DNA of 64,000 bases from Occultella kanbiaonis (GTDB lineage Bacteria; Actinomycetota; Actinomycetes; Actinomycetales; Beutenbergiaceae), in NCBI RefSeq assembly GCF_009708215.1, contig NZ_CP046175.1:3844001-3908000 (forward strand), written 5' to 3'. Of the stretch, positions 33,120 through 53,661 are shown in pieces (the first letter of the stretch is position 1; each line of letters starts with the position of its first letter). A model generated the notes under the pieces. It saw only the letters and a program-made list of their open reading frames with translations, did no database searches and was not told the origin of the DNA. The translations under genes were made by a program, and so were the position numbers.

Positions 33120-34031
33120 TCAGAGCCAGCCGAGCGCGATCACGATCAAGAGTTGGGTGATCAGGAAGCCGCTGATCAGGTTGAGCCAGAGGAATCTGCG
33201 CCAGCCGGATCGGGCCCTCTCGCAGTCCTCGTCGACGAGGTGCCGGAAGGGTGCGACGCTCGCCAGGTACAGGACTGGAACCACGGCGGCGAGGGCGCCC
33301 GGCCAGCCGGCCGTGAGCATCACCGCACCGGACAAGGCGTACCCGACCATCGCCGCGCGGACCGTCGCCCGTGCGCCGAGCCAGGTGCCCACCGAGGCGA
33401 TCCCGGCCTGCCGGTCGGCGTCGATGTCTTGCACAGCGCCGAATGCTTGTGACGCCATCCCCCAGAGGAAGAAGGCCACGATCGCGGCCACCACCGGCCA
33501 GGAGGGCTGCGCGCCGGCCAGTGCGAGCCCGAACACGGCTGGACTGACGAAGTGGGTGCTGGAGGTGATCGAGTCGAGGACGGGGCGTTCCTTGAAGCGA
33601 AGCCACGGCGCGGAGTACGCCACCACCGCGAACACGCTCACGCCGAGCACGGCCGTCGATGTCGGCGTACCGACCATCGCCAGGTAGGCGAGGAACGGGA
33701 CATTCGTCAGCGCCGCGGCCCACAGCACCAGCCGGTGCCACCGGCGGTCGAGGACGACACCCTCGATGCCGCCCTTGCGCGGATTGCGCAGGTCGGACTC
33801 GTAGTCGAAGACGTCGTTGATGCCGTACATCAGCAGGTTGTACGGGATGAGGAAGTACAGGGTGCCGATGACGAGCACGACGTCGACGCTCCCGGCTGTG
33901 AGTAGGTAGGCGGCAGCGAACGGGTAGGCAGTGTTGATCCAGCTGATTGGACGGGATGCGCCGACGAGCTGGCGTATCGGTCCGCCCGGCTGGGATTGCG
34001 ACCGCGCTGGCAGTGCAGCCGGCCCGCTCAC
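33120..34031 (-). CDS. crtEb: Lycopene elongase / UbiA-type prenyltransferase (C50 carotenoid)
   Basis: A 303-residue UbiA-family membrane prenyltransferase with about eight helices and the two Asp-rich motifs 'NDVFDYESD' and 'QDIDADRQAG'. In C50-carotenoid operons this enzyme adds two C5 units (from DMAPP) to the ends of lycopene, giving flavuxanthin-type C50 precursors. The GTG at 34031 overlaps the preceding cyclase-subunit stop by 4 bp. Last gene of the crt operon. Confidence 0.9.
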   Translation of the reverse strand: MSGPAALPARSQSQPGGPIRQLVGASRPISWINTAYPFAAAYLLTAGSVDVVLVIGTLYFLIPYNLLMYGINDVFDYESDLRNPRKGGIEGVVLDRRWHRLVLWAAALTNVPFLAYLAMVGTPTSTAVLGVSVFAVVAYSAPWLRFKERPVLDSITSSTHFVSPAVFGLALAGAQPSWPVVAAIVAFFLWGMASQAFGAVQDIDADRQAGIASVGTWLGARATVRAAMVGYALSGAVMLTAGWPGALAAVVPVLYLASVAPFRHLVDEDCERARSGWRRFLWLNLISGFLITQLLIVIALGWL

Positions 34032-34366
34032 GGTGATCCTCCTGTACCCGGGTCCGCCTGCGGTGGTCTGCGTGAGCCGAGCAACTCCCACGTGGCGGGT
34101 AGCAACAACGCTGCGGCGAGCGGCCAGGCGAAGTCCTCCACGGGGGCGACCCCGATCCGGAGTCCGCTGAGGGCCGCCTCCTCGTACCGGTACAGGTCGG
34201 CGGCGATCATCACGGAGTCGAACACCGCCGTCAGGACGATGAGGATGAGCGCCACGAGTGCGACACCTGTCCACCATCGCCACGATGGTCGGACGCGCAC
34301 GGCGCATGCCACCGCCACGACCGCGGCTACGGCCACCACGACCAGGGCGAGCGCACCGTAGGTCAT
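34028..34366 (-). CDS. crtYf: C50 carotenoid cyclase subunit (CrtYf-like)
   Basis: A 112-residue membrane protein with three helices and the lycopene-cyclase-domain motif 'GVAPVEDFAWPL' (a variant of the usual PxE(E/D)). It works as a heterodimer with the subunit encoded just upstream to cyclise the ends of the C50 chain. Whether the ring is of epsilon, gamma or beta type cannot be told from sequence. It overlaps both neighbours by 4 bp. The Ye/Yf labels follow operon order. Confidence 0.85.
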   Translation of the reverse strand: MTYGALALVVVAVAAVVAVACAVRVRPSWRWWTGVALVALILIVLTAVFDSVMIAADLYRYEEAALSGLRIGVAPVEDFAWPLAAALLLPATWELLGSRRPPQADPGTGGSP

Positions 34367-34689
34367 GACCGGCCCTCCCGACCGAGGCTGAACCTACGGA
34401 GAAGTCCGCACAGCACCATCGTGAGGTAACACAGGAACGTCACGAACACGATTTCCTCGATGGGCAGGTGAGGGAGTACCTCGAGGCCGCTGAGCGCGGC
34501 GCTCTGCCCGCGTCCGTAGAACCCGAGCAGGATCGCGGCCACGTCGGCGAGCAGGAAGAACAGGACCCCAACCAGCAGGGTGAGTGCACCACGTCGGGCG
34601 TCGGCGAACAGGAACAACCGCCACCGATGATCCATCAGCACCATGCAGGCCAGCGACACGAGCAGGCAGATCAGGTAGAGCCATCTCAT
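34363..34689 (-). CDS. crtYe: C50 carotenoid cyclase subunit (CrtYe-like)
   Basis: A 108-residue membrane protein with three helices and the cyclase motif 'LPHLPIEEIVFVTFLCYLTM', where the PIEE residues are conserved in this family. It is the partner of the CrtYf-like subunit. The start at 34689 overlaps the crtI stop by 4 bp; the long upstream open frame lies within crtI and is not coding. Confidence 0.87.
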   Translation of the reverse strand: MRWLYLICLLVSLACMVLMDHRWRLFLFADARRGALTLLVGVLFFLLADVAAILLGFYGRGQSAALSGLEVLPHLPIEEIVFVTFLCYLTMVLCGLLRRFSLGREGRS

Positions 34690-36260
34690 GCGGGCTCCGG
34701 GAGAGGCTCGGTGGACCGGTCGCCGCGCAGTCGCTTGAGCAAGATCTCGGCGCTGATCAGGCACATCGGCAATCCGATCCCGGGGATCGTGCTCGAACCG
34801 GCGTAGTACAGTCCGTCCACCTTACGGGAGGCGTTCCGTCCGCGCAGGAACGCGCTCTGGCGCCAGGTATGGGCCGGGCCGAGGGCTCCCCCCGACCAGG
34901 CGTTCAGATCCGCGACGAAGTCCGCGGGCCCGACGGTACGGCGGAGCACGATCCGCTCCTGCAGATCAGTGATGCCGGACCACGTGGCGACCTGGTCGAT
35001 CGCGGCGTCTGCGATCCGCTCCACCGTAGGGTCGCCGCCGCCGCTCATGCCGCCGCCGCCGATGCTCGGGTCCGGGGGCACCGGGATCAGCACGAAGAGG
35101 TTCTCCATACCCGGTGGCGCAACCGTCGTATCGGTCGCGGAAGGTCGGCACACGTAGCACGAGGCCGGGTCCGGCACACGCGGGTTGTCGCCGAAGATGT
35201 CGTCGAAGTTCCCGGTCCAGTCACGAGTGAAGAACAGCGAGTGGTGTGCCAGCTCGGGTAGCTCGCCACGCACGCCGAGGTACACCAGGACGGCGCCGGG
35301 GCCGGATTCACGCCGGTCCCACCACCGCTGCGGGTACGTCTGCAACGACAGGGGTAGCAGGTCGGTCTCCGTGTGGTGCAGGTCGGCCGCCCCGATGACG
35401 ACGTCCGCCGCGATGGTCCGTTCGGACCCGTCCGAAGCCTGGTACCGCACGCCGGTTGCTCGGGCGCGCCCCCGGTGCGGAGTGGTGGTGCTGATAGCCG
35501 TGACCACCACGTTGGTGTGCAGGCGCGCACCCTCTTTCTCCGCGAGCGTCGCGATCACCTCGATGAGGCGAGTGAAGCCCCCGTGGGGATAACTGACGCC
35601 ATCGGCCAGGTCGAGGTGGCTCATCAGGTGGTACATGCTCGGAGCTCGATCGGGTGAGGAGCCGAGGAACACGGCAGCGTAGCCAAGGATCTGCCGGAGC
35701 CGATGGTCGGTGAAGGACTTCGCCACGAATGTCTCGAGCGGCGTGCCGAGCAGGGTCAGCAACCGGCCGGCGCGGGCCAGCACATCCCTGCGCAGCAAGG
35801 GGACCAGGGACTGGAATGAGGAATAGAGAAACCGGCGGGTCGCGACGTCGTGGGTGTCCCGTGCCGACGCGAGATAGGCCCGGAGGCCGGCGCCGGCGCC
35901 AGGTTCGATGGCTTCGAAGGATGCGACGTTGTGCGCCAGGTCGGCGCGGATGTCCATCGGTTCGTCGAAGCCCTCGAAGAAGACGCGATAGGCGGGGTCG
36001 AGGGTTTCGAGGTCGAGCTCAGCACGTGCCGTGGTACCGAGGAGGCGGAAGAAGTGGTCGAACACCTCTGGCATGAGGTACCAGGACGGCCCGGTATCGA
36101 ACCGGAAGCCGTCCTGCGCCCAAGATCCAGCCCGACCTCCAAGAGTCTCCTGCTGTTCGAGCAGATCCACGTCGTAGCCGTTGCGGGCGAGCAGCGCCGC
36201 GGATGCCAGGCCGGCGATACCGCCGCCGATGATCACCGCGCGCTGACCTGCTGAGGTCAC
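34686..36260 (-). CDS. crtI: Phytoene desaturase
   Basis: A 524-residue FAD-dependent desaturase that converts phytoene to lycopene. The N-terminal dinucleotide-binding fold is 'AVIIGGGIAGLASAALLARN', followed by 'GGRAGSWAQDGFRFDTGPSW'. The C-terminal CrtI signature region reads 'GLYYAGSSTIPGIGLPMCLI'. The GTG at 36260 overlaps the crtB stop by 4 bp, which fixes the start in spite of a long upstream open frame. Confidence 0.95.
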   Translation of the reverse strand: MTSAGQRAVIIGGGIAGLASAALLARNGYDVDLLEQQETLGGRAGSWAQDGFRFDTGPSWYLMPEVFDHFFRLLGTTARAELDLETLDPAYRVFFEGFDEPMDIRADLAHNVASFEAIEPGAGAGLRAYLASARDTHDVATRRFLYSSFQSLVPLLRRDVLARAGRLLTLLGTPLETFVAKSFTDHRLRQILGYAAVFLGSSPDRAPSMYHLMSHLDLADGVSYPHGGFTRLIEVIATLAEKEGARLHTNVVVTAISTTTPHRGRARATGVRYQASDGSERTIAADVVIGAADLHHTETDLLPLSLQTYPQRWWDRRESGPGAVLVYLGVRGELPELAHHSLFFTRDWTGNFDDIFGDNPRVPDPASCYVCRPSATDTTVAPPGMENLFVLIPVPPDPSIGGGGMSGGGDPTVERIADAAIDQVATWSGITDLQERIVLRRTVGPADFVADLNAWSGGALGPAHTWRQSAFLRGRNASRKVDGLYYAGSSTIPGIGLPMCLISAEILLKRLRGDRSTEPLPEPA

Positions 36261-37141
36261 GATCGGCCACGCACGGCGTACGCGTGGACGAGGATCCATC
36301 CCTTGCCCATCGCCGGTACCCGGACCCTGGAGCGGCGCAATTGAGTGGCCGGGGTAGCACGCAGTCGCTTGGAGAGGGCCGCGAACAGGTCGTGCGCGGC
36401 TCGAACCGCCCGCCGGCTGCTCCGGGGTAGGCGTGCGATTGCGACGGCCGCGGCATCGAGGTCGGCATCGATCTCGTCCAGGAGGGCGTCTCTGTGCGCG
36501 TCCGTGAAGTGGTCCACGTCCAGGTCCGGGAAGTAGATCCGGCCGCGCAGATCGACGTCGGCGCCGAGGTCGCGAAGGAAGTTCACCTTCTGGAAGGCCG
36601 CGCCGAGTCGCTTCGCGCCCGGCGCGAGGTGGCTGTAACTGGGTGCGCGAGCCGCGTCCGGTGCGGCGAGGAAAGCCCGCAGGCACATCAGTCCGACCAC
36701 CTCCGCGGAGCCGTAGACGTACTCCCGCAGGCTCTGCTCGTCATGGCCGGTGACAGACAGATCGGTTCGCATCGATGCGAAGAAGGGCGCGATCAGGTCT
36801 GCGCCGATGCCGCAGGACCGAGCCGTCAGCGCGAATGCGTGCACCAGCAGATTCGTGCTGTGACCGGTCCGCACGGCGTCAAGGGTCTGTGCCTCGAGGG
36901 CGTCCAGCAGCACGGCGGCTCGCGCAGGGTCCGCCGATGTGGGTCCGTCCACCAGTTCATCCGCGACGCGTACCAGTGCGTAGATGCTGCGCACCTGGGT
37001 GCGCACCGGCTCCGCCAGCAGCCGGCACGCCCAGGAGAAGGACGTGGAGTACCCCGAGATCACGACACCCGCGCTACGTTGGGCGACCCGGTCGTAGAGC
37101 GGGTCGGCCGAGCCTGCGATGGTGCCCGCTCGGACGCTCAT
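36257..37141 (-). CDS. crtB: Phytoene synthase
   Basis: A 294-residue enzyme that joins two geranylgeranyl diphosphates to phytoene. It has the squalene/phytoene-synthase hallmarks 'YALVRVADELVDG' (first Asp-rich motif DELVD) and 'AAFQKVNFLRDLGADVDLRG' (second Asp-rich region RDLGAD). The ATG at 37141 overlaps the crtE stop by 4 bp. Confidence 0.95.
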   Translation of the reverse strand: MSVRAGTIAGSADPLYDRVAQRSAGVVISGYSTSFSWACRLLAEPVRTQVRSIYALVRVADELVDGPTSADPARAAVLLDALEAQTLDAVRTGHSTNLLVHAFALTARSCGIGADLIAPFFASMRTDLSVTGHDEQSLREYVYGSAEVVGLMCLRAFLAAPDAARAPSYSHLAPGAKRLGAAFQKVNFLRDLGADVDLRGRIYFPDLDVDHFTDAHRDALLDEIDADLDAAAVAIARLPRSSRRAVRAAHDLFAALSKRLRATPATQLRRSRVRVPAMGKGWILVHAYAVRGRS

Positions 37142-38187
37142 GCCGCGCTCCGGAGCAGACCCTTGGTCAGCGTGGAGACCCAGCCCAGAAACTCGCGCGG
37201 CAGCCCGATCTCGTCGGCGATGACGAGTGCCGCCTCCAGGTAGCTGTGTGCGAGATCCTCGATGAACTGGCGCGAACCGCACTCCTCGAGCAGGGCGCAG
37301 GCCCGGTCTGCCTGTTCCTGGGTCAGGTCCGCCTTTCCGTGGAACGGCGCGATCGACGGCCACTGGGCTGTCGTGCGTGCGTGCGCGATCAGCGGCGTCT
37401 GCTTTGCCTCGCGCAGGTCGCTCAGGCAGCTCTTTCCGGTCTGTTCCTCGTCGCCGAAGACACCGAGAACGTCGTCCTGGAGCTGGAATGCGATGCCCAC
37501 CAGGCGGCCGAGCTCGCCCAACCGGTCCACCACGGGTGCAGCTGCCCCGGCGAGGATGGCACCGGCCTGGAGCGGGAGGACGAACGAGTACACCGCCGTC
37601 TTGAGCTCGGCCATGGTGAGCACCTCGCCGAGCGTGGCGCTACCGATGCCGACCGAGAGCCCGACGTCGGCCAACTCCCCCGCGGCACTGGCGTGCACGG
37701 CCTGGTCCACGAGGTCGAGGACGCGGGAGACGGTCGCCGGTGGGGCGCCGCACAGTGCGACGGTGCGCACCGCGCCCACGAGTGCCAGGTCCCCGGCGAG
37801 GATGCCTGCGGTCTGCGCGTAGGCGTTGGCGTGGGCCTTGTCGACCCCGGCCGCGCGTGCTCGACCGGCTGCGGCGCCGGATACATTGGGCAGGCCGCGT
37901 CGGGTCTGATCACCGTCGATCACGTCGTCGTGGATCACGAATGCGGTGTGCAGCAGTTCTACCCCGGCGGCGACGGTGGCGGCCATGTGGCGGTCCGTGC
38001 CGCCGTGAGCCTGATAGACGCCGACCAGCAGGGCCGGCCGGAACCGTTTGCCACCGGATGTGGCACCGGCGAGGTCGGACCACAACTGCTGGTACGGCCC
38101 ACCGAGGGGGCCGGAGCTGGCGGTGCCGCGGTCGATGAAGTCCTGCAGCACGGCGTCACGTTCGAGGTCACGGTCCGTCGGGTTCAT
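37138..38187 (-). CDS. crtE: Geranylgeranyl diphosphate synthase
   Basis: A 349-residue trans-prenyl diphosphate synthase. The first Asp-rich motif is 'FVIHDDVIDGDQTRRG' and the second 'FQLQDDVLGVFGDEEQTGKS'; both chelate magnesium. The length and N-terminal 'GGKRFRPAL' suit long-chain GGPP synthases. The ATG at 38187 overlaps the idi stop by 4 bp. It supplies C20 diphosphate to CrtB and perhaps to other pathways. Confidence 0.95.
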   Translation of the reverse strand: MNPTDRDLERDAVLQDFIDRGTASSGPLGGPYQQLWSDLAGATSGGKRFRPALLVGVYQAHGGTDRHMAATVAAGVELLHTAFVIHDDVIDGDQTRRGLPNVSGAAAGRARAAGVDKAHANAYAQTAGILAGDLALVGAVRTVALCGAPPATVSRVLDLVDQAVHASAAGELADVGLSVGIGSATLGEVLTMAELKTAVYSFVLPLQAGAILAGAAAPVVDRLGELGRLVGIAFQLQDDVLGVFGDEEQTGKSCLSDLREAKQTPLIAHARTTAQWPSIAPFHGKADLTQEQADRACALLEECGSRQFIEDLAHSYLEAALVIADEIGLPREFLGWVSTLTKGLLRSAA

Positions 38188-38747
38188 CGGACGTACTCCG
38201 GTCGCGAGGTGACTCGATCGCCGGTGGCGGCCAGTTCGTTGAGTTGCTGCACCATCCACGGGCTGAGCGCCCAGGGGGCCACCCGGATCAGATTCCCGAC
38301 GTCCTCCATCCGCACCCATTGTGTCTCCATGACGGCGTCGGGGTTCGGCGTCGGGATCTGGTCCGAGTAGGCGAACAGCACCGGGCAGACCTCATCCTCG
38401 ACCATGCCGCCAGCGCCAACGGCGCGGAAGCGGAACTCCGGCAGCACCACGTCGATGCCGTCGATTGTCAGGCCCAACTCCTGGTCGGCAAACCGTCCGA
38501 CCGCGTCCGGGAGGTTCTCGTCGAGATGGGGGCGTCCGCAGAAGGAATTCGTCCAGACTCCCGGCCAGGTCGTCGTCGTGAGCGCTCGCCGGGTGAGCAG
38601 GACGTGACCGTCGGCGCGGAAGAGGTAGCAGGAAAAGCCAAGGTGGAGTGAGGTATCACGGTTTGGCACGGTCGCTCGCGGCGGAGCACCCAGCCCGTGG
38701 CCTGCGTCATCGAGCAGGATCACATCGTTGACGTCTTCTCGAGGCAT
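38184..38747 (-). CDS. idi: Isopentenyl-diphosphate delta-isomerase, type 1
   Basis: A 187-residue Nudix-fold enzyme interconverting IPP and DMAPP. The catalytic Cys lies in 'WTNSFCGRPHLDENL' and the Nudix region in 'AVGRFADQELGL'. Most type 1 enzymes read CGHP here; this one has CGRPHLDE, so a metal-binding His may be shifted by two positions. First gene of the crt operon. DMAPP is both the GGPP starter and the donor for lycopene elongation, which explains its place here. Confidence 0.9.
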   Translation of the reverse strand: MPREDVNDVILLDDAGHGLGAPPRATVPNRDTSLHLGFSCYLFRADGHVLLTRRALTTTTWPGVWTNSFCGRPHLDENLPDAVGRFADQELGLTIDGIDVVLPEFRFRAVGAGGMVEDEVCPVLFAYSDQIPTPNPDAVMETQWVRMEDVGNLIRVAPWALSPWMVQQLNELAATGDRVTSRPEYVR

Positions 38748-50059: not shown

Positions 50060-51100
50060 CTAGCGAGCGAGCCGCTCCACGATCGCTCCGTACAACCACG
50101 GGAGTCCCGCGGCCGCCGGCATGATCGCGGCCCGCGCGGGTGAGGTGGCCAAGCCCACGAGGCCGCTGGTCAGGACACGGTAGTCACGGGTGGCCTCGGT
50201 CCAGGCACGTTCATAGGCTCGTGGGTCGTCGTCGAGCGTGGCCACGGCCGCGCGTGCCTGGGCGAAGCCCACGCGCAGGCCCTCACCGGTCAGCGCGTCG
50301 ACATAGCCGGACGCGTCACCGACGAGCCGGATCCGGCCCAGGGCCCGGCGACGGGAGCGCTGCCGCAGCGGGCCCGCGCCGCGAACCGGACCGAGCGGCT
50401 CCGCCTCGCGCACCCGCTCCCAGACCTCGGGGAACGTGGCGAGCGCGGCGGTGTAGTCGATGCCCGCCGGGCCGAGCAACGCCACTCCTACGACGTCATC
50501 GGCGACGGGCGTCACGTACGCCTCCACACCGGCGCCCCAGTGCACCTCGACGAGGTCGGTCCAAGCCTCCACCCTGAAGTGCCGGCGCAGTCCGAACCGG
50601 CGGCGGTCTCGCCGTCCTCGGGACACGACTGCCAGTCCCGACGCGCGCCGGGCGGTCGAGTGCAGGCCGTCGCACGCGATCAGGAACCGCGCCTCGATGC
50701 CGGCCGCCCGTACGCCGTCGGGCGACTGGGCGATCCGATCGACCCGGGCCCGAACATGCGTCGCACCGAGTTCGATGCAGCGGGCGTACAGGTCTGCGTG
50801 CAGGGTGGTCCGTCGAACGCCCCGACCGGGACCGGTCACGAAGAGGTGGTCGACATGCCGGTGGCTGTCCCGGTAGCTGATCCCGGTCAGAGGATGCCCG
50901 GCCGGATCGACTCCGAGTCGGCGCAGCCCGGCCAGGGCGCCGGGCATCAGACCCTCGCCGCACGCCTTGTCGACGGGGCCGCTACGTGGCTCCACCACGA
51001 CGACCTCGCGGCCGGCGAGCCGGGCCTCGATCGCGGTGGCAAGTCCGACTGGCCCACCCCCGACGACGAGGATCTCCGTGCGGGTTCCCGGCTCGCTCAC
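50060..51100 (-). CDS. FAD-dependent oxidoreductase, geranylgeranyl-reductase/phenolic-lipid hydroxylase type
   Basis: A 346-residue flavoprotein. N-terminal FAD loop 'ILVVGGGPVGLATAIEARLA', a conserved 'KACGEGLMPGAL' segment, 'FLIACDGLHSTARRA' and the second FAD motif 'RIRLVGDASGYVDALTGEGL' place it in the class A monooxygenase / geranylgeranyl-reductase superfamily. The GTG at 51100 overlaps the methyltransferase stop by 4 bp. In Streptomyces the comparable third gene (SrsC) hydroxylates alkylresorcinols; the same role is possible here. Confidence 0.85.
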   Translation of the reverse strand: MSEPGTRTEILVVGGGPVGLATAIEARLAGREVVVVEPRSGPVDKACGEGLMPGALAGLRRLGVDPAGHPLTGISYRDSHRHVDHLFVTGPGRGVRRTTLHADLYARCIELGATHVRARVDRIAQSPDGVRAAGIEARFLIACDGLHSTARRASGLAVVSRGRRDRRRFGLRRHFRVEAWTDLVEVHWGAGVEAYVTPVADDVVGVALLGPAGIDYTAALATFPEVWERVREAEPLGPVRGAGPLRQRSRRRALGRIRLVGDASGYVDALTGEGLRVGFAQARAAVATLDDDPRAYERAWTEATRDYRVLTSGLVGLATSPARAAIMPAAAGLPWLYGAIVERLAR

Positions 51101-51657
51101 GGACCCGCTCGCCCCGTCGCCGCTCCGTCTGTCCGGGTCGCGCCGGCGAGCGCTCTTTCCTCGGCCGGGATCCGGAACCCCAGCAGCAGCAACGCATTGA
51201 GCACGGTGAAGACCGCGGCTGTGACCCACGCGGTGTGGATCAGCGGGAGCGCAAGGCCCTCCACGACCACCGCCACGTAGTTCGGGTGACGCAGCCAGCG
51301 GTATGGCCCGACGACGACGAGTGGAAGCCCGGGCACGACGATGATTCGGGTGTTCCACCGCTCGCCCAGCGTGGCGATGCACCACCAGCGCAGAGCCTGG
51401 CTCGCCAGCACCGCCACCAGTGCCGTCCACCCGAGGGCCGGCAGGAACGGACGGTCCGCGAACCACACCTCGGCCACGCACGCGATCAGCAACCCGGTGT
51501 GCAGGGCGACCATGGCCGGGAAGTGGCCGCGACCGCTCTCCACCCCGCCGCGACCGAACGCCCAGCTCGCGTGCCGGGCCGAGACAACCAACTCCAGGAG
51601 TCTTTCCAGGGCTGTCGCGGCGACCACCACGACGAACAGGATGAACGCCGGGCTCAC
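51097..51657 (-). CDS. Isoprenylcysteine carboxyl methyltransferase-like membrane methyltransferase
   Basis: A 186-residue membrane protein with four to five helices. The ICMT/PEMT signature is present: 'GPYRWLRHPNYVAVVVEGLA' (RHPNY binds S-adenosylmethionine), with a downstream Glu-Glu in 'RIPAEERAL'. The GTG at 51657 overlaps the polyketide-synthase stop by 4 bp. In the srs pathway the second gene is such a methyltransferase that O-methylates the phenolic ring. Since bacteria rarely carry CaaX proteins, a small-molecule substrate is likelier than a protein. Confidence 0.87.
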   Translation of the reverse strand: MSPAFILFVVVVAATALERLLELVVSARHASWAFGRGGVESGRGHFPAMVALHTGLLIACVAEVWFADRPFLPALGWTALVAVLASQALRWWCIATLGERWNTRIIVVPGLPLVVVGPYRWLRHPNYVAVVVEGLALPLIHTAWVTAAVFTVLNALLLLGFRIPAEERALAGATRTDGAATGRAGP

Positions 51658-52733
51658 TCCGGCACCCCCCACCGCAACAGCACCAGTTCCGCGCACACGC
51701 CCGGCCCGAACGCCAACAGCACCCCGTAGGAGCCGGGAGCGGGACGATCCAGTTTGAGTGTCTCGTCCAAGACGTGCAGCACCGACGAGGAGGACAGGTT
51801 ACCGACCGCCGCGAGCGACGAGCGGCTCACCTGCAGGTCACCCTCGTGCAGGTCGAGCGCGGCGGCGACCGCGTCGAAGATGCGCGGCCCACCCGCGTGC
51901 ACGATCCACGTGGTCACATCCTCACGGGCGAGCGAGTGCTCGGCGAGCAGGATCGACACGTCGCCGGCGAGATTCTCGGAGATCACCTGCGGCAGCCCGG
52001 CGGAGAGCATGATGGCGAAGCCGGTGTCCTTGATGTGCCAGCCGAGGTCGTCCGCGGTATCCGGGTAGAGGCAGCTGCGACTGCCCAGCACGTCCGGCCC
52101 ACCCTGACCGACCCGACCGGCCGGGTGGTTCTGCCCTGTCAGCACCACGGCGGCGGCACCATCCCCGAAGAGAGCGCTCGAGACGAGGTTCGCCGTCGAG
52201 TCGTCGCCCCGCTGGAACGTGAGCGAGCACAACTCGACCGACACCAACAGGGCGACGTGGTCCGGGTGACCGGCCAGGTAGTCATGCACACGCGCGATCC
52301 CGGCGGCCCCGGCCACGCAGCCCAGACCGAACGACGGCATCCGCCGGACGTCGTTGCGCAGCCCGAGCCGGCCGACCAGCGCGGCATCGATGGACGGTGC
52401 CGAGATGCCGGTGACCGATGTGAACAGGAGGAAGTCGACGTCGGCGGCCGCGATCCCGGCGCGGCTCAGCGCCGTCCGGCACGCCTCCTCGGCGAGCGTC
52501 GTGCCCTCGGAGATGAACAGATCGTTGGCGCGGCCGAACGATGTCAGTTCGGCGTACTGCTCGAGCGGGAGCGCCAAGTGTCGGGTGCGAACCCCACTGG
52601 AGCGCTGCAGCCGGGTCAGCGCGGCACGCCGCACCGGGTCACTGGTGAGCAGCGGACCGATCGTGTCGATGATCTCCTGCTGGGGGTGCGCGCGACCGGG
52701 AAGCGCGGGACCGACGGCAACGAGGCGCGACAT
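51654..52733 (-). CDS. Type III polyketide synthase
   Basis: A 359-residue chalcone/stilbene-synthase-fold enzyme, length typical. The catalytic triad is visible: Cys in 'MPSFGLGCVAGAAGIARVHD', His in 'TWIVHAGGPRIFDAV' and Asn in 'SLAAVGNLSSSSVLHVL'. The C-terminal 'GSYGVLLAFGPGVCAELVLL' is the family signature. Such enzymes extend a fatty acyl starter with malonyl-CoA to alkylresorcinols or alkylpyrones. First gene of a three-gene coupled operon and divergent from a UbiA prenyltransferase. Confidence 0.94.
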   Translation of the reverse strand: MSRLVAVGPALPGRAHPQQEIIDTIGPLLTSDPVRRAALTRLQRSSGVRTRHLALPLEQYAELTSFGRANDLFISEGTTLAEEACRTALSRAGIAAADVDFLLFTSVTGISAPSIDAALVGRLGLRNDVRRMPSFGLGCVAGAAGIARVHDYLAGHPDHVALLVSVELCSLTFQRGDDSTANLVSSALFGDGAAAVVLTGQNHPAGRVGQGGPDVLGSRSCLYPDTADDLGWHIKDTGFAIMLSAGLPQVISENLAGDVSILLAEHSLAREDVTTWIVHAGGPRIFDAVAAALDLHEGDLQVSRSSLAAVGNLSSSSVLHVLDETLKLDRPAPGSYGVLLAFGPGVCAELVLLRWGVPE

Positions 52734-52812
52734 CGTGGCATCGTGTCACGCAGTTCACTCGTCGGCACCACCAACCGACGCCGCACCGAGCCGGCTCTAC
52801 GGAGGAGAACGC

Positions 52813-53661
52813 GTGAGGTCTTGGACCCGCATCGCCCGTGGACTGGGCTCCGCCAGCCATCCGGGCCCGACTGTGGTCGTGACCCTGCTCGCCGCGGCGT
52901 TCGCCGTCGGTGTCGGGGCGGATCCAGCACGGGCCGTCCTGGTCACCCTGGCCGTGCTCACCGGGCAGCTCTCGGTCGGATGGTCCAATGACTGGATCGA
53001 TGCCGAGCGCGACACCGCGGTCGCCCGTGATGACAAGCCCGTCGTCGCGGGCCTGGTGTCGGTCAGGACCCTTCGCCGCGCCGCGCTGCTGGCGGTGTCC
53101 GCGTGTGTCGTCCTGTCCTTGGCCACAGGCTGGGTCGCCGGCGCGGTGCACCTGGCCGCGGTGGCCAGTGCGTGGTCGTACAACCTCGTCCTCAAGGCCA
53201 CCCTGCTCTCCTGGGTGCCCTACGCCGTCTCGTTCGGCCTGCTGCCCGTCTTCGTCGTGCTGGCCTCAATCCCTGGCGCATCGACCGCCCCGTGGGCGGT
53301 CATCGCGACGTCCTTGCTCGGTGTCGGCGCGCACGTGGCGAACACGCTGCCCGATCTGGAGGACGACCGCCGAACCGGTATCCGCGGCCTGCCGCACCGG
53401 GTCGGGCGAGCCGCGGCGAGTCTGCTGGCGCCGATGGTGCTCATGCTGGCGACGGTCATCGTCGTCCTGGGACCCGACCGACCACCCGGACCGGCCGTCT
53501 GGATCGGAGGCATCATCGCCCTCGTCCTGGCCGCCTCCGCCGGGGTCGTGGCCAGGAGCCGGACGCGCAGCCGGCTGCCGTTCGCGCTGAGCATGGCGGT
53601 GGCTGCGGTCTGCGTCGTGCTGCTCGTGCTGGCCGCACCCGAAGTCGCGGTGCCCGGGTGA
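52813..53661 (+). CDS. UbiA-family prenyltransferase
   Basis: A 282-residue membrane prenyltransferase with about nine helices. The Asp-rich motifs are 'SNDWIDAERDTAVARDDKPV' (NDxxDxxxD) and 'DLEDDRRTGIRGLP'. UbiA enzymes attach an isoprenoid chain to an aromatic ring or polar acceptor. GGAGGAG precedes the GTG at 52813. It is divergent from the type III polyketide synthase (79-bp gap), so prenylation of a polyketide-derived phenol or quinone is the obvious hypothesis; the donor could be GGPP, which CrtE can make. Confidence 0.9.
   Translation: MRSWTRIARGLGSASHPGPTVVVTLLAAAFAVGVGADPARAVLVTLAVLTGQLSVGWSNDWIDAERDTAVARDDKPVVAGLVSVRTLRRAALLAVSACVVLSLATGWVAGAVHLAAVASAWSYNLVLKATLLSWVPYAVSFGLLPVFVVLASIPGASTAPWAVIATSLLGVGAHVANTLPDLEDDRRTGIRGLPHRVGRAAASLLAPMVLMLATVIVVLGPDRPPGPAVWIGGIIALVLAASAGVVARSRTRSRLPFALSMAVAAVCVVLLVLAAPEVAVPG

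Follow-up and report, generated by a model that had tools for sequence, protein, structure and literature searches.

In a window of 64,000 nucleotides from Occultella kanbiaonis (C1:3844001-3908000 of a single-contig genome of 5.65 Mb), which is the whole stretch of DNA analyzed here, four genes form a block that we consider, on balance, rather probably a divergent phenolic-lipid locus. Three of them lie on the minus strand and encode a type III polyketide synthase (PKS), a membrane methyltransferase of the ICMT family and an oxidoreductase dependent on flavin adenine dinucleotide (FAD); together, they would make an alkyl-methoxyhydroquinone. The fourth starts 79 bp away in the opposite direction and encodes a UbiA-family membrane prenyltransferase, which would prenylate that hydroquinone. 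The linkage between UbiA and the PKS, on which much of the argument turns, is strong and recurrent. The first three gene classes are those of the srsABC operon of Streptomyces griseus and of pkqABC, likewise encoded on one strand in the descriptions consulted; unlike these operons as described, the window has the divergent UbiA gene. What we did not expect is the regularity with which UbiA is found beside operons of the srs/pkq type outside one Mycobacterium-like family.

This regularity is seen in a survey of 393 genomes of the class, in which we counted a PKS as SrsA-type from 395 bits upwards, because the listed PKS scores leave a gap between 395 and 261 bits; this yields 140 copies in 120 genomes. 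At least 70 of the 140 copies have a UbiA gene within 6 kb. The linkage counts are probably lower bounds, since they are drawn from the matches listed (UbiA down to about 183 bits, PKS down to about 245 bits), since many genomes are fragmented and since few first-look candidates were scored per genome. Among the matches listed, the 70 linked UbiA genes are divergent from the PKS in 46 cases, upstream on the same strand in 18, downstream on the same strand in 2 and convergent in 4, and a linkage that survives such repeated changes of orientation indicates a functional bond, not a frozen gene order. The FAD protein is linked as well, as 109 of 117 listed matches have an SrsA-type PKS no more than 6 kb away. 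UbiA is near at least 69 of these 109 PKS copies and not near the other 40 among the matches listed, 15 of which belong to family f11, labelled Mycobacterium-like on the strength of the Pks11 match of one member.

UbiA and the PKS also occur together at the level of whole genomes. When UbiA is counted as a match at E <= 1e-25 anywhere in the genome, linked or not, a measure that takes in weak members of the family, it is found in 91 of the 120 PKS-bearing genomes of the class and in 106 of the 273 others (p = 1e-11, kinship ignored). The 29 PKS-bearing genomes without a match include all 21 of family f11. The earlier note on this DNA had made its proposal depend on relatives keeping UbiA together with the PKS operon; the proposal is not refuted by this test, as outside f11, 91 of 99 PKS-bearing genomes have a match, although f11 has the trio without such a UbiA. 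In a second survey, of 150 genomes of genus group g35, identified as Streptomyces from one member (G410) whose coordinates nearly coincide with those of Streptomyces sp. NBC_01237, 68 genomes carry the PKS in 71 copies. UbiA is found in 63 of these 68 genomes and in 1 of the 82 without the PKS (p = 5e-35, again ignoring kinship), and it lies within 6 kb of 62 of the 71 SrsA-type copies, divergent in 56 cases and on the same strand in 6. The view that UbiA is a local addition, foreign to srsABC, thus gives way in the very genus from which that operon is known.

A scan of genome contigs queried with the window PKS returned 28 loci, namely 25 of a close type (L003-L027), two from Cohnella and one distant fragment. 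The methyltransferase gene follows the PKS in all 25 close loci, although in L012 the contig breaks off after its start. The FAD gene comes next in 22 and, in L022, after another 6 kb or so; among the 25, it was not seen in L012, where the contig ends, or in L026. A divergent UbiA gene lies beside the PKS in 17 of the 25, and of the eight genomes without an adjacent copy, six carry a UbiA of the same subfamily elsewhere (206-302 bits). The conserved co-occurrence that the earlier note had proposed to look for in other genomes is found in the scan, in Streptomyces and in the class outside f11. The idea that UbiA is an accidental neighbor is weakened by the linkage in both surveys, by the genome-wide co-occurrence and by these unlinked copies. 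The distances of UbiA and PKS are correlated across 47 loci (r = 0.72, with 0.16 as the highest of 2000 permutations), which is weak support, as a common history of the species would by itself give such a value. In L011, a complete actinobacterial four-gene block lies on a contig labelled as a metagenome-assembled genome of Proteobacteria, perhaps mis-binned, and in the Cohnella loci (L028, L029; Bacillota), a type III PKS is followed about 0.8 kb downstream by a weakly matching flavoprotein.

Within the window, the genes, their strands, the two overlaps and the gap of the divergent pair are as the earlier note had described them (Table 1). The PKS stop and the GTG start of the methyltransferase gene share a GTGA (51654-51657), as do the methyltransferase stop and the GTG start of the FAD gene (51097-51100), while GGAGGAG precedes the GTG start of UbiA. 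All four proteins have Pfam matches over the cut-off: PF00195 (8.5e-25) and PF02797 (2e-22) for the PKS, PF04140 (2.6e-28) for the methyltransferase, PF01494 (1.7e-11) for the FAD protein and PF01040 (3.5e-28) for UbiA; NCBIfam offers related models only, all below their cut-offs. The short divergent region presumably carries the promoters of both the PKS operon and UbiA. At the end next to the PKS start, 17 bases (CGTGACACGATGCCACG, 52734-52750) are identical in four aligned sequences of the Ruaniaceae and are a possible promoter or leader element. Elsewhere in the genome, PF00195 has one further match, of 29 bits compared with 91 bits for the window PKS, and there are three other UbiA-family genes, namely heme o synthase, MenA and a gene of a carotenoid cluster. 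Since the block recurs across actinobacterial families, it is more than a chance arrangement.

The sequence motifs fit this assignment. The catalytic triad of the PKS (C139/H279/N312), which the earlier note had called intact, does not vary among 23 aligned PKSs or among 91 sequences taken from the fetched loci, some of which overlap; with the same-strand PF04140 and PF01494 genes that follow, the PKS completes the trio of srsABC classes that had been recognized from the sequence. HPNY is invariant in 21 aligned methyltransferases, and both Asp-rich motifs noted in UbiA, NDxxDxxxD (N59, D60, D63, D67) and DxxxD (D181, D185), are invariant in 18 aligned UbiAs. Rows left out of the block-protein alignments are L008, L009, L016 and L028-L030 (A1), L005, L009, L012, L016 and L026 (A3), and L008, L009, L012, L016 and L020 (A4). 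By PKS, the nearest named genomes are Occultella gossypii and O. glacieicola (86% identity each). PKS, ICMT, FAD protein and UbiA are 56, 66, 49 and 51% identical to those of Streptomyces sp. NBC_01237, whose full four-gene block (L120) sits on a linear record of 1.6 Mb labelled as a plasmid, and the trio is 49, 60 and 51% identical to that of one Mycobacterium-like genome; the PKS of that genome scores 544 bits with Pks11 of M. tuberculosis.

By analogy with the characterized relatives, the type III PKS would elongate a fatty acyl starter by malonyl (or methylmalonyl) units before cyclizing the chain to a 5-alkylresorcinol, the ICMT-type enzyme would O-methylate one phenol, and the FAD enzyme would hydroxylate the ring to yield a 6-alkyl-2-methoxy-1,4-hydroquinone that can be oxidized to the quinone. 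These steps correspond to the route from alkylresorcinol via methoxyphenol to methoxyhydroquinone and quinone that is described for the srsABC/pkqABC type (PMC9927152). For the fourth step, the agq cluster of Actinoplanes missouriensis comes closest as a precedent; in it, AgqD, a UbiA-like enzyme, is reported to O-prenylate an alkyl-methoxyhydroquinone (PMC3227686), giving 6-alkyl-4-O-dihydrogeranyl-2-methoxyhydroquinone (PMC3569393); products of the agq type have also been assigned to some Streptomyces and Micromonospora clusters (PMC7093587, PMC8698034). As far as these sources describe it, agq resembles the window in combining a type III PKS, modifying genes and a UbiA-type enzyme, and the window UbiA has both Asp-rich motifs. 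In agq orthologs of Phytohabitans, the PKS tag is followed by the agqB-agqD tags, an order known from these tags, whereas the window UbiA is divergent. Since the hydroquinone class of the trio is the acceptor of AgqD, the simplest reading is SrsABC-type chemistry followed by AgqD-type prenylation: a prenyl diphosphate would donate a short prenyl group, which UbiA would attach to the hydroquinone, most likely at a ring oxygen. The final lipid, an O-prenylated alkyl-methoxyhydroquinone that would no longer be able to cycle as a simple quinone, would then probably be capped with an isoprenoid and be a close variant of the known Actinoplanes pathway. The earlier note, which did not name agq, had proposed a prenylated lipid with a quinone-like ring as the acceptor; its prenylated end product is made plausible by the agq precedent, while the acceptor there is a methoxyhydroquinone and the product an O-prenyl ether.

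Related arrangements have been described. The los locus of Micromonospora endolithica (loseolamycins) has UbiA, methyltransferase, acyl-CoA dehydrogenase and type III PKS side by side, as listed in Table 1 of the loseolamycin paper, and the same order is found in one of our fetched loci, L087 (disA, radA-like, unknown, UbiA, methyltransferase, acyl-CoA dehydrogenase, PKS, two others, carD). The UbiA of L087 is 50% and its PKS 37% identical to that of the window, and in place of the ICMT and the FAD_binding_3 protein, it has a class I S-adenosylmethionine methyltransferase and an acyl-CoA-dehydrogenase-family protein; L084 likewise has UbiA beside such a los-like PKS cluster, with the same two enzyme families. 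In Gephyromycinifex aptenodytis, a block like that of the window (UbiA, stilbene-synthase-type PKS, ICMT, FAD oxygenase) is likened to an alkylresorcinol cluster and discussed for angucyclines, and the passages on it propose no prenylated phenolic lipid. UbiA adjacency is reported in PMC8779670, in the part consulted. Neither 'prenyl' nor 'UbiA' occurs in the main text of PMC9927152 as consulted, and in a search that did not extend to subscription literature, we found no paper that counts UbiA among the enzymes of the srs/pkq pathway.

Several observations weigh against prenylation as the fate of the trio's product, beginning with the general point that linked genes need not act on the same substrate. 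The Mycobacterium-like family f11 has the trio, with UbiA in 0 of its 21 PKS-bearing genomes, and among the matches listed, no UbiA lies within 6 kb in families f3, f15, f16, f23, f26, f28, f29, f31 and f32 (20 PKS-FAD copies). Streptomyces sp. MNU77 is reported to make unprenylated quinones with an operon of this kind, as detected in spores (PMC9927152), so that prenylation may be conditional, minor or absent. The PKS itself could make pyrones, as its best relative in the PDB and closest solved one is the pyrone synthase Pks11 (336 bits). A Trp at the position of ArsB-281 has been cited for resorcinol formation (PMC9927152), and the window PKS has W276, which we take as the equivalent in an alignment that does not include the ArsB sequence itself; Trp occupies this position in 86 of the 91 fetched PKS sequences, some overlapping. 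We rejected it as proof of resorcinol formation because Pks11 shares it. Furthermore, the kinship of the window UbiA to AgqD would run through the los-like loci rather than through a direct comparison.

The UbiA subfamily, moreover, is wider than this pathway, given its matches in 106 of the 273 class genomes without an SrsA-type PKS. Of the 80 listed UbiA matches that are not near such a PKS, 28 have some other type III PKS within 6 kb, which speaks for the proposed reading, and 52, again to be counted against prenylation by this locus, have no type III PKS within that distance. On the idea that this UbiA may mark an ebo-type cluster, the 20 fetched loci around unlinked UbiAs (L080-L099) bear indirectly: seven contain another type III PKS, and the rest have mixed neighbors, few of them identified. 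Next to the los-like clusters, there is a third architecture (L091 and L092, from genomes of the same taxonomic order as the window), in which UbiA accompanies a type III PKS 30-33% identical to that of the window; L091 adds a nitroreductase and a FAD_binding_3 protein. Over the aligned parts, the window UbiA shares 47-59% identity with the UbiAs of six compared loci with non-SrsA type III PKSs. In a tree of 68 rows with one outgroup on a very long branch, from which 18 duplicate or overlapping loci were left out, these UbiAs fall among the SrsA-linked ones; the SrsA-linked UbiAs do not form one clade (7 changes), another point on the opposing side, and only the T3 pair does. Some UbiAs of the same subfamily have carD as a neighbor and no type III PKS within reach (L085 5990-6823, L088 5512-6342), which suggests another substrate or an ancestral site and likewise counts against a role confined to this pathway.

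Much of this would be expected if the trio were complete in itself, making an alkyl-methoxybenzoquinone as a respiratory carrier, with UbiA as a neighbor in an unrelated membrane-lipid role. In the parts of PMC9927152 consulted, the trio type is described as the machinery for respiratory polyketide quinones (PkQs) in M. smegmatis and in Streptomyces sp. MNU77, and PkQs are proposed, from the three-gene set, as alternative electron carriers across actinobacteria. The unprenylated quinones of MNU77 spores, the trio of f11, the 52 listed UbiAs without a type III PKS within 6 kb and the 106 genomes with UbiA but no SrsA-type PKS all agree with this explanation. It does not account for the way in which UbiA tracks the presence of the PKS in Streptomyces and outside f11, stays near it in four different orientations and is present, unlinked, in most of the genomes of the scan without an adjacent copy. 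We therefore consider a three-gene quinone operon rather unlikely for the window, without regarding it as far-fetched.

A prenyl chain could also be joined to a ring carbon, which would turn the product into a respiratory alkyl-prenyl-benzoquinone. In lipoquinone pathways, aromatic prenyltransferases create C-C bonds (PMC3227686), and in relatives, trios of this type yield a respiratory quinone; AgqD, however, a UbiA-like enzyme acting on this kind of acceptor, makes an O-ether according to the same source, and we consider such a hybrid quinone improbable. O-prenylation of the hydroquinone remains the preferred reading.

The FAD protein has been proposed, in the earlier note, as a geranylgeranyl reductase that saturates the prenyl chain instead of hydroxylating the ring. 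Its best NCBIfam match is indeed the geranylgeranyl-reductase superfamily, and it has a CGEG motif, presumably of the kind known from that family. Its score against TIGR02032 is 78 bits, below the cut-off of 158.8, and in f11, where no PKS-bearing genome has a UbiA match, the FAD gene still lies near 15 PKS copies. In four relatives, the block contains a separate geranylgeranyl-reductase-family protein over the TIGR02032 cut-off (166-175 bits), adjoining UbiA in L104, L110 and L114 and the PKS in L115, and each of these loci keeps an SrsC-like gene, which leaves to the window FAD protein the hydroxylase role described for srsC/pkqC. A model of these four brought out just one further actinobacterial candidate among the fetched loci, L072, and in most of the fetched UbiA loci, we found no separate reductase in reach. 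Where there is one, it suggests reduction of the prenyl chain, for which the dihydrogeranyl product of agq is a parallel. The window FAD protein is thus probably not a geranylgeranyl reductase, and a role as prenyl reductase strikes us as highly improbable.

A possible source of the prenyl donor lies in the window itself. A carotenoid cluster (33120-38747) comprises a UbiA-family gene (NCBIfam PRK13105), which we take to be of the lycopene-elongase type, and genes for a phytoene desaturase, a phytoene-synthase-like protein, a geranylgeranyl diphosphate (GGPP)-synthase-like protein and an isopentenyl diphosphate isomerase. The synthase-like gene, which may also be of the farnesyl diphosphate (FPP) kind, could supply the UbiA of the four-gene block, perhaps with GGPP as the earlier note had suggested.

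Table 1. Positions of the four-gene block, its divergent region, a candidate prenyl-donor gene (all in the window) and separate reductase genes in related loci
Feature	Position	Strand	Details
Type III PKS, SrsA/PkqA type	51654-52733	minus	ATG start, 359 aa; PF00195/PF02797
ICMT-family membrane methyltransferase, SrsB/PkqB class	51097-51657	minus	GTG start, 186 aa; PF04140
FAD-dependent oxidoreductase, predicted ring hydroxylase of SrsC/PkqC class	50060-51100	minus	GTG start, 346 aa; PF01494
UbiA-family membrane prenyltransferase, divergent	52813-53661	plus	GTG start, 282 aa; PF01040
Divergent intergenic region	52734-52812	none	79 bp, between PKS ATG and UbiA GTG
GGPP/FPP-synthase-like gene	37138-38319	minus	NCBIfam isoprenyl diphosphate synthase models, all under cut-offs; GGPP_syn 6.7e-36, 124 bits
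Separate reductase adjoining UbiA	L104 5446-6609; L110 2972-4153; L114 4241-5431		over NCBIfam cut-off
Separate reductase adjoining PKS	L115 906-2108		over NCBIfam cut-off

Beyond the window, we tentatively raise the possibility that the srs/pkq machinery outside mycobacteria is mostly a four-gene pathway, in which an overlooked UbiA leads to a prenylated polyketide-isoprenoid lipid, be it a storage or membrane form capped by O-prenylation or a novel hybrid lipoquinone. If so, the quinones reported for such Streptomyces operons would be intermediates. If the prenyltransferase belongs to the PkQ set in Streptomyces, Cellulomonas, Oerskovia, the Ruaniaceae and others, then the end product, its redox behavior and its role would need to be re-examined, and a search for UbiA-PKS pairs would point to prenylated phenolic lipids in many little-studied genera.

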